Below, piece after piece: positions 25,708 through 27,171 of a DNA stretch of 64,000 nucleotides. The DNA comes from Parabacteroides sp. TM07-1AC (GTDB taxonomy: Bacteria > Bacteroidota > Bacteroidia > Bacteroidales > Tannerellaceae). Every line of letters begins with the position of its first letter. Positions within the stretch are counted from its first letter, which is position 1. The notes under the pieces are model-generated. The model had not been told where the DNA came from. It ran no database searches and worked only from the letters and a program-made list of their open reading frames with translations. The DNA lies in the NCBI RefSeq assembly GCF_003480915.1, contig NZ_QUKD01000001.1, positions 124,001 through 188,000 on the forward strand, given 5' to 3'. Position numbers and translations under genes: made by a program.

Positions 25708-27171
25708 ATGGCAACATTAAATATAAAAGAATTCCTGGACAGGGACGAGCAGAAGGATTTGCTTCGTTTCCTGACGGCAGGTTCGGTAGACGACGGTAAA
25801 TCGACTTTGATCGGACGTCTGCTGTTTGACAGTAAAAAGTTGTACGAAGATCAGCTGGATGCACTTGAACGTGACAGCAAACGTATGGGAAATGCCGGCG
25901 ATCATATCGATTATGCTTTATTGCTGGATGGTCTGAAAGCGGAACGCGAACAGGGTATCACGATCGATGTGGCTTACCGTTATTTCAGTACAAACAACCG
26001 TAAGTTTATCATTGCCGATACTCCGGGACATGAACAATATACCCGCAACATGATCACCGGCGGTTCGACTGCCAACCTGGCTATTATCCTGGTGGATGCC
26101 CGTACCGGTGTGATCACACAGACACGTCGCCATACATACCTGGTGTCGCTGTTGGGTATCAAGCATGTCGTGCTGGCAGTAAACAAAATGGACCTGGTTG
26201 ATTTCGACAAACAGATATTTGATAAGATCGTATCCGATTATAAAGAATTTGTCTCTTCACTGAATATTCCGGATATCACTTATATCCCGCTTTCCGCTCT
26301 GGACGGTGATAATGTCGTGGACAAGAGCGACCGTACCCCGTGGTACGATGGTCCTTCATTGCTGGATTTCCTGGAAACAGTGCCTATCGACCAGGATCGC
26401 AACTTTGAGGATTTCCGTTATCCGGTGCAGTACGTATTGCGCCCGAACTTGGACTTCCGTGGCTTCTGTGGTAAAGTATCCAGCGGCATCATCCGTAAAG
26501 GTGATACGGTAATGGCTTTGCCTTCACGCAAGACCTCCAAAGTAAAAAGCATTGTGACATATGACGGAGAACTGGATTATGCATTCCCGCCCCAGTGCGT
26601 GACCATTACCCTGGAAGACGAGATAGACGTGTCCCGCGGCGAGATGCTGGTACATCCGGACAATCTGCCGATGGAAGACCGTAACTTCGAAGCCATGCTC
26701 GTATGGATGGATGAAGAAGCGATGGATATGTCCAAACAGTTTTATATCAAACATACGACAAACCTGACGCGTGCGCGTGTAGACAGTATCCGTTATAAGG
26801 TAAATGTCAATACGATGGAGCAGTTATCAATTGATAATGGACAATTGACAATTGACAATTTGCCGATGAAACTGAATGAGATTGCCCGCGTTGTATTCAC
26901 TACCGGAAAACCCTTGTTCTTCGACCCTTACCAAAAGAATAAACAGACAGGTGCATTCATCCTGATCGACCCGATCACCAATAACACGTCGGCTGTCGGA
27001 ATGATCATCGACCGGGTGGATGCGAAAGATATGGTAACGGAAGATGCACTGGCAGTGCTGAACCTGCCTGAACTCGGAATAGGTGAAGAGCATTACGGTG
27101 CGATTCGTACGATATGTAAAGAATTGGAGCGCCAGGGTGTTCCTGTGAAATGTATAACTGAAAAGAAATAA
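25708..27171 (+). CDS. cysN: Sulfate adenylyltransferase subunit 1 (GTPase) with an in-frame repeat insertion
   Basis: 487 residues. GTPase motifs are intact: GSVDDGKSTLIGRLLFD (G1), the REQGITIDVAYR switch, DTPGHEQYTRNM (G3) and NKMDLVD (G4), followed by EF-Tu-like beta-barrel domains. It hydrolyses GTP to drive APS formation by CysD. There is no fused APS kinase. Around residues 372-387 the chain reads EQLSIDNGQLTIDNLPMKLN where relatives have only a short linker before the KLNEI block; the extra residues are encoded by an in-frame copy of the heptad spacer repeat (see 26821-26862). The rest of the C-terminal domain (VVFTTGKPLFFDPY) is normal, so the protein is probably functional. Confidence 0.97.
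   Translation: MATLNIKEFLDRDEQKDLLRFLTAGSVDDGKSTLIGRLLFDSKKLYEDQLDALERDSKRMGNAGDHIDYALLLDGLKAEREQGITIDVAYRYFSTNNRKFIIADTPGHEQYTRNMITGGSTANLAIILVDARTGVITQTRRHTYLVSLLGIKHVVLAVNKMDLVDFDKQIFDKIVSDYKEFVSSLNIPDITYIPLSALDGDNVVDKSDRTPWYDGPSLLDFLETVPIDQDRNFEDFRYPVQYVLRPNLDFRGFCGKVSSGIIRKGDTVMALPSRKTSKVKSIVTYDGELDYAFPPQCVTITLEDEIDVSRGEMLVHPDNLPMEDRNFEAMLVWMDEEAMDMSKQFYIKHTTNLTRARVDSIRYKVNVNTMEQLSIDNGQLTIDNLPMKLNEIARVVFTTGKPLFFDPYQKNKQTGAFILIDPITNNTSAVGMIIDRVDAKDMVTEDALAVLNLPELGIGEEHYGAIRTICKELERQGVPVKCITEKK
26821..26862. repeat. Heptad spacer element inserted in frame in cysN, copy 2
   Basis: Contains three exact GACAATT heptads (26840-26860) and, left of them, an AATTGATAATGG segment. Bases 26829-26860 are 30 of 32 identical to 24118-24149 in the permease-cysC spacer. 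It adds about 10-15 residues to CysN and keeps the frame. Confidence 0.9.

Follow-up and report, generated by a model that had tools for sequence, protein, structure and literature searches.

How does the gene for a conserved enzyme come to hold, in frame, a stretch of DNA that is nearly identical to a repeat lying between genes? The question is raised by cysN in the window, by which we mean the whole 64,000-nucleotide stretch of Parabacteroides DNA analyzed here. A sequence-only reading had proposed that an intergenic repeat entered this gene and kept the frame, as Rickettsia palindromic elements (RPEs) do. We compared the cysN loop with its counterparts in relatives, with the repeats around it, and with similar repeats in other genes.

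The cys region and its heptamer arrays

The cysN gene (25708 to 27171, forward strand) encodes sulfate adenylyltransferase subunit 1 as an ORF of 487 amino acids (aa), with Pfam domains GTP_EFTU and GTP-eEF1A_C and a match to structure 1zun_B (E value, 8.7e-164). On the same strand lie cysC, encoding adenylylsulfate kinase (24166 to 24771; Pfam APS_kinase, 3.3e-63), a gene that we take, from its place in the gene order, to be cysD, encoding sulfate adenylyltransferase subunit 2 (24790 to 25698; Pfam PAPS_reduct, 1.9e-56), and a sulfotransferase-family gene (27175 to 28278; Pfam Sulfotransfer_3, 1.6e-39). The nearest named CysN proteins are those of Parabacteroides goldsteinii and P. faecis, at ∼97% identity to that of the window, which probably belongs to their group. 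Two CysN proteins with a long internal duplication, P0001 (728 aa) and P0002 (624 aa), are possibly assembly artifacts. Two records listed as plasmids, NZ_OY725750.1 and OY725991.1, match the cys genes and may be chromosomal pieces; in NZ_OY725750.1, cysC, cysD, and cysN are annotated beneath the match to the window.

The CysN loop in question comprises residues 374 to 386 (SIDNGQLTIDNLP; 26827 to 26865, forward strand) and lies between strands in the structural model. Its core (26829-26860, forward strand) is a heptamer-like series forming one arm only, with the units AATTGAT, AATGGAC, AATTGAC, and AATTGAC followed by AATT. We confirmed that this stretch is in frame within CysN and encodes the loop peptide, that 30 of its 32 bases are identical to 24118-24149 in the spacer between the permease gene and cysC, and that 28284-28308 is identical to 26829-26853 at 23 of 25 bases. 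With up to three mismatches allowed, the 32-base pattern matched the window four times, compared with a mean of 0 in 100 shuffles, and the match between cysN and the spacer is far beyond chance. A repeat unit of 32 bp was rejected, as Tandem Repeats Finder gave a period of 7.

The repeat is a tandem array of period 7, with the unit AATTGAC and the variants AATTGAT, AATGGAC, and AGTTGAC. At three places in the window this array is doubled into a hairpin, a forward array followed by its reverse complement. These full hairpins, which carry no strand assignment, lie at 29287 to 29366 (AGTTGAC type; forward array, 29287-29319; reverse array, 29337-29366; folding z score, −9.0), 37285 to 37360 (mixed AGTTGAC and AATTGAC; z, −7.9), and 62432 to 62513 (AGTTGAC type; z, −6.8). 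The array in the permease-cysC spacer (24118 to 24149) is a forward one whose order of units is identical to that of the cysN stretch, with AATGGAY second. A short self-complementary array lies 3′ of the sulfotransferase gene (28277 to 28308, forward strand; z, −5.6), and comparable arrays are found ∼1.1 to 1.4 kb downstream of cysN in several relatives. The cysN stretch is a single arm with a weak fold (z, −2.2). No Rfam family matched the window at gathering scores. The window also has a tandem repeat of 22/44 bp at 20904-21015 (TGAAACACTTGTTTCTCCTAAG), which is unrelated to the heptamer.

We located 66 arrays relative to ORFs in the window and in the loci of genome G048. Of these, 28 were intergenic, 30 ran across an ORF end, and 8 were inside an ORF by a crude ORF call that placed them mostly near ORF ends; those of G048 were judged to be near ORF ends and were left out of the in-gene count. 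Two G048 hairpins (L283:3264-3353 and L300:2709-2788) have the sister unit AGTTGAA/AGTTGAG in a genome that also carries AATTGAC arrays, so several unit spellings coexist. Three perfect AATTGAC units were also found in a few contigs of a viral collection (28 stretches, L429 to L456).

Long and short forms of the CysN loop

The proposal of an in-frame entry at 26829-26860 assumed that CysN proteins have only a short linker at this point, and this assumption was not borne out. From 218 loci, 4 were skipped as repeats, 23 had no parsed ORF, and 5 had no linker. Among the 186 CysN sequences of relatives, 86 had the same long form with similar sequence, 99 had a short form, and 1 (L113) was long with unrelated sequence. 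When the window was included, the linker was 30 residues long in 88 of 187 sequences (L113 counted among them), 21 in 98, and 22 in 1. Relatives of the window are overrepresented in this sample, and some of its records are doubled (the cysN genes of L002 and L175 are identical outside the linker).

All 29 loci parsed for the genus of a Phocaeicola record (out of the 30 best-scoring of 40, with one skipped) and all 30 for the genus of a Bacteroides record (the 30 best-scoring of 87) had the long form; because these are best-scoring loci, both sets are biased toward it. Three loci titled Bacteroides (L004, L005, and L009) had the short linker. In the family of a Parabacteroides record, 23 of 49 loci were long, L113 included. 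Of the 120 proteins nearest to the window CysN, 118 were long by pattern, 1 was short, and 1 was unmatched by the pattern yet long. The nine extra residues are absent from more distant aligned CysN proteins, including that of a Pseudomonas locus (L039), and from structure 1zun_B, which we take to come from Pseudomonas syringae.

Genomes with the long loop include some that have no strict arrays. Across 60 array-poor genomes the loop has the consensus S[VLI][ED]NG[RKQ]L....[LV]P, with N in 59 of 60, G in 60 of 60, and L in 60 of 60. An alignment of related CysN proteins had been expected to show the extra residues missing from most of them; instead, many relatives whose genomes have few strict arrays or none possess them, and a recent insertion at the window site is therefore not how they arrived. 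The entry of a repeat into cysN at this place is thus not supported, and the loop of the window CysN is a feature common to many relatives.

In the AlphaFold model of CysN (mean pLDDT, 72; below 50 for residues 1 to 66), residues 375 to 390 are without secondary structure between strands 372-374 and 391-405, with pLDDT of 67 to 75 in this block. A second loop, residues 437 to 448 (27016 to 27051, forward strand), has little secondary structure; it is element-free in the window and carries elements in relatives.

Codon spelling and jumps in the loop

If the presence of the loop is shared, its DNA spelling in the window is still peculiar. When the amino acids were kept and codons were sampled according to the usage of nine window genes, a match of 30 of 32 bases was reached in 6 of 200,000 draws (mean, 22.9); sampling from cysN's own codons gave none in 5,000. 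The loop DNA is spelled like the repeat far beyond what its amino acids need. Compared with SVENGQLTADSLP, the common P. goldsteinii form, the window has four residue differences (V to I, E to D, A to I, and S to N), and all four go toward the heptamer peptide IDNGQLTIDN. Between the window CysN and P0007, 4 of 16 differences fall within 13 of the 487 residues.

Across 82 long-loop genomes, the number of strict array matches in the genome correlated with the repeat match of the linker (rho, 0.48) and with its codon-level z score (rho, 0.44), and likewise with the match expected from the amino acids alone (rho, 0.46); all of these values include relatedness. The mean codon-level z was 3.1 in the 12 genomes with at least 20 strict matches and 0.5 in the 70 with fewer, relatedness again included. 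Independent pairs, in which relatedness is removed, went, when scored at a match of at least 27 bases, the same way as array richness in 3 to 5 of 9 cases and the opposite way in none (sign test, P = 0.06 to 0.25), and independent pairs scored at a codon-level z of at least 2 gave no support (same way, 1 to 3; opposite, 0 to 2; P = 0.25 to 1). Exceptions occurred on both sides. Three genomes with many strict matches (G608, 41; G679, 28; G626, 40) had an ordinary linker (17 to 21 of 32 bases), and two with none had linkers at 27 of 32 (G628) and at 22 of 32 with a codon z of 3.2 (G054). In a few genomes (e.g., G060 and G074) the strict pattern also matched its reversed control, and those counts are inflated.

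In a cysN tree from which the linker was left out, the window falls among species, its sisters included, whose loops are spelled otherwise, and the repeat-like state (at least 27 of 32 bases) changed at least seven times among 83 rows. We then compared 122 pairs that differed by at most 16% outside the linker. L085 and L088 differed by 3.3% in the rest of cysN and at 12 of 36 linker bases (Fisher test, P = 4e-9), and L089 and L091 by 3.8% elsewhere and at 8 of 36 linker bases (P = 8.8e-5); in both pairs, 0 of 442 comparison windows were as divergent. The linker of L085 reads AGTTGAC, AGTTGAC, AATGGAC, AGCTGAC, and AGCTGAC. A fast linker was also seen in some array-free pairs (L152/L167 and L140/L142; both P = 2e-4), and its speed is therefore no proof by itself. 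The loop spelling does change by multibase jumps between some sister species. A likeness at greater distance was seen between two genomes of different search groups, G057 (that of a Parabacteroides record's family) and G616 (that of a Bacteroides record's genus): all 12 linker third positions were shared, compared with 46% elsewhere, and 5 of 465 comparison windows were as alike. Most of 18 other linker pairs were less alike than this one, and for the window and G037, 215 of 465 comparison windows were as alike as the linker.

In-frame elements in other genes

The sequence-only reading had suggested a search for other in-frame copies, and such copies were found in relatives. We examined 139 distinct arrays from 133 array-centered loci, mainly of G048, G057, and G037 and exclusive of the cys regions L249 to L268. 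Six had an open, coding-like frame through 90 nucleotides (nt) on each side. One of the six, in G616, was the CysN loop; the remaining five were hairpins in four uninterrupted reading frames. By Pfam, the host genes encode the large subunit of carbamoyl-phosphate synthase (CarB), with the element within the CPSase_L_D3 domain; a permease of ACR_tran (RND) type; MurF-alanine racemase (MurF-Alr); and a PD-(D/E)XK nuclease with two copies. Element-free orthologs exist for each in-gene element, and six in-gene elements fold as hairpins (z, −4.4 to −9.3). Some heptamer elements thus occupy variable loops of conserved proteins without breaking the reading frame.

In CarB, the site was filled in 7 of 25 genomes (87 to 126 nt) and element-free in 18 (36 to 48 nt); G042, whose sole match was a paralog, was dropped. 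The CarB element changed at least four times on the cysN tree (23 placeable rows), its presence was not significantly related to array number (P = 0.14), and no comparable insert is present in mitochondrial carbamoyl-phosphate synthase (5dot). In the nuclease, loop 1 had at least three units in 5 of 19 genomes (G039, a weak case, among them) and loop 2 in 5 of 17 parsed genomes; G060 and G077 were dropped because their matches were in pieces, G055 gave no match, and loop 1 of G001 was misparsed. Loop 2 is spelled, in both of its arms, with units of AATTGAC type in G037 and of AGTTGAA type in G048, G050, and G051, and the three hairpins folded are strong, with z scores of −8.4 (G037), −9.3 (G048), and −6.9 (G051). 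The two in-frame nuclease elements of G037 (L375:1069-4131) have an identical inner loop of ∼20 bases, and in the G048 nuclease the two inner loops are identical but for one base; such matching within one gene suggests copying between its two sites. Among the RND query and its best 120 matches, 97 of 121 had one plain loop and 5 of 121, the query included, had repeat peptides of DNGQ or DSGQ type. For MurF-Alr, DNGQL was present in 5 of 121 (the query and its best 120 matches, query included), and the others had related or shorter loops.

At the second CysN loop, G057 and G054 carry an element, G050 carries part of one, and G122 has a separate forward arm, whereas G048, G051, and the window are element-free there. 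G054 (L112 and L381) keeps its CysN C-terminal and CarB elements with 0 strict matches in the genome, so in-gene copies can outlive arrays. The unit spellings of in-gene and intergenic copies showed no significant agreement across 11 genomes (rho, 0.42; P = 0.19), with G048 and the window going the opposite way, and 13 linkers were matched no better by arrays of their own cys region than by arrays of other regions.

Since 7 and 3 have no common factor, every frame of (AATTGAC)n reads I-D-N-stop-Q-L-T. Forward in-gene arms escape the stop because a unit AATGGAC (or AGTGGAA) stands at the needed place, giving IDNGQLT or similar, as read in the forward arms of CarB, RND, MurF-Alr, nuclease loop 2, and CysN. 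Reverse arms are open and read VNCQLSI. A unit AATGGAY or AGTGGAY between two other units was found in all 25 array-bearing genomes tried, mostly outside the named genes, and being so widespread, such units mean that no special adaptation is needed for reading.

Discussion

We lean toward the view that one arm of a heptamer-hairpin element either overwrote the CysN loop or, long ago, gave rise to it, and that these elements resemble RPEs in action and are not RPEs. The elements form a family in some Bacteroidales, with the unit A-R-T-T-G-A-N, a whole length of ∼75 to 110 bp, and a mostly intergenic location. Each is built of an arm of ∼4 to 5 units, a loop of ∼15 to 50 bases, and a reverse-complement arm, with single arms occurring too. 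Their scattered occupancy suggests that they are mobile. In CysN, the old loop may already have been a short partial match to the unit, with NG and L nearly fixed, and short-patch copying (gene conversion or template switching) from a nearby array, e.g., that at 24118-24149, could then have overwritten it; in other genes, whole hairpins would have been inserted or copied in. The peptide would be tolerated because the site, judging from the model, is a flexible surface loop. Against copying, some array-rich genomes have an ordinary linker, the linker is fast in some array-free pairs, and the NG may be a turn under selection. A simple donor model is disfavored by the unit spellings, which did not agree significantly between in-gene and intergenic copies, by the CarB element, whose presence was not significantly tied to the number of arrays, and by the linkers, which fit arrays of their own cys region no better than those of others. 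An ancestral insert of this kind may also have been the origin of the long CysN loop itself. A wider version of this idea, which we put forward tentatively, is that a self-renewing heptamer-hairpin family supplies protein loops in Bacteroidales by being written in frame into housekeeping enzymes, that both arms of an element can be rewritten together into another unit spelling at one site, as in nuclease loop 2, and that the long CysN loop common to many Bacteroidaceae and Tannerellaceae descends from an old, domesticated copy, reconverted in some lineages.

The loop could instead be purely a relic. Its nine residues would then be an in-frame heptamer arm of an ancestral Bacteroidales CysN, of which the window lineage kept or renewed the spelling while most lineages drifted under protein selection. 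The long form differs by exactly 9 residues (30 versus 21), the near-fixed N, G, and L and the alternatives D/E, Q/K, and T/K fit units ending in C or A, and the CysN C-terminal element common to G050, G057, and G054, the last with 0 strict matches, provides a precedent. However, N-G flanked by V or I and acidic residues is a common turn, so its heptamer likeness may be chance, array-poor genomes most often have R in place of the Q (26 of 60), a residue that the main unit does not give, and the window's sisters on the CysN tree are spelled otherwise. We find this account possible and somewhat doubtful. That an ordinary turn loop merely resembles the unit, with AT-rich codons setting the spelling, we consider unlikely. 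The protein motif does raise the expected match to ∼22.9 of 32, and G628 and G054 lean toward the unit with no strict matches, but such a coincidence fits poorly with the 6 in 200,000 codon draws, the mean z of 3.1 versus 0.5, and the multibase jumps between sister species.

A functional reading makes the unit a DNA or RNA site, bound by a regulator or nucleoid protein and selected in the cys operon, cysN included. Four of the six array places in the window do lie within 24118-29366, around the cys genes, and arrays recur downstream of cysN in several relatives. Copies in the unrelated genes for CarB, MurF-Alr, RND, and the nuclease, with orthologs that have none, count against it, as do the 6 of 20 cys regions without arrays at the threshold used (G045, G058, G042, G040, G125, and G123) and the empty Rfam search of the window, and we hold it to be quite improbable. 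Least credible of all is a recent in-frame insertion into the window cysN that added residues absent from relatives. Its one attraction is the DNA identity to the spacer array; against it, 118 of the 120 nearest proteins have a loop just as long, as do relatives in Phocaeicola and Bacteroides, and for a length difference at the window site it is refuted by the linker survey.

The preferred reading, an overwriting by or an ancient origin from one hairpin arm, invites comparison with known repeats. RPEs are described as 105 to 146 bp long in one review and ∼150 bp long in another, and as falling into about ten families (PMC2229807, PMC10969869). The heptamer elements resemble them as small stem-loop repeats that are both intergenic and in frame in conserved protein genes and are tolerated in the product, and differ from them in being ∼75 to 110 bp long and made of degenerate 7-bp units whose spelling varies by genome and site. 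By the length of 105 to 146 or ∼150 bp in these descriptions, the heptamer elements are too short. The family does occur in frame in several unrelated conserved genes, and the three window hairpins and six in-gene elements form long stem-loops; the cysN arm alone (z, −2.2) does not, and the residues of the window copy are shared with relatives. The RPE analogy drawn by the sequence-only reading is therefore apt for the heptamer family, with its in-frame copies and element-free orthologs, and unproven for the window cysN copy.

TAACTGA heptamers form direct repeats in Beggiatoaceae, Cyanobacteria, and five Bacteroidetes; the arrays are mostly intergenic in the best-studied genome, which has only one indirect repeat, and forward copies are necessarily at ORF ends because of stops in three frames, while reverse copies can be open (PMC4679880). 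Both systems have 7-base tandem arrays, some in or overlapping ORFs and mostly at their ends (PMC4679880), but the unit here is ARTTGAN (AATTGAC, AGTTGAC, AGTTGAA, and variants), inverted pairs are many, and forward arms with AATGGAC lie inside genes. Bacterial MITEs such as ERIC/RU-1 and Correia elements are likewise dispersed small palindromes, some fused in frame to genes (PMC2229807), and inverted arms are present in the heptamer elements as well. PARCELs are comparable as palindromic DNA coding for a repeat peptide (PMC2996958). The heptamer elements combine the in-frame property of RPEs with the unit length of the TAACTGA repeats and match neither in size or unit. In the literature searched, in which few subscription papers were covered, we found no account of AATTGAC arrays, nor of palindromes lying in frame, for Bacteroides or Parabacteroides.

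Rickettsia, whose members live inside cells and are hard to study genetically, is the best-known source of conserved proteins that carry palindromic elements in frame. A similar pattern in gut Bacteroidales would open both the entry of repeats into genes and the roles of the extra loops to direct testing. A heptamer array can dodge its own stop codon through one variant unit, and our results suggest that repeat peptides can turn into ordinary loops. If the arms of these elements are truly rewritten together, their sites would be a natural record of short-patch copying.
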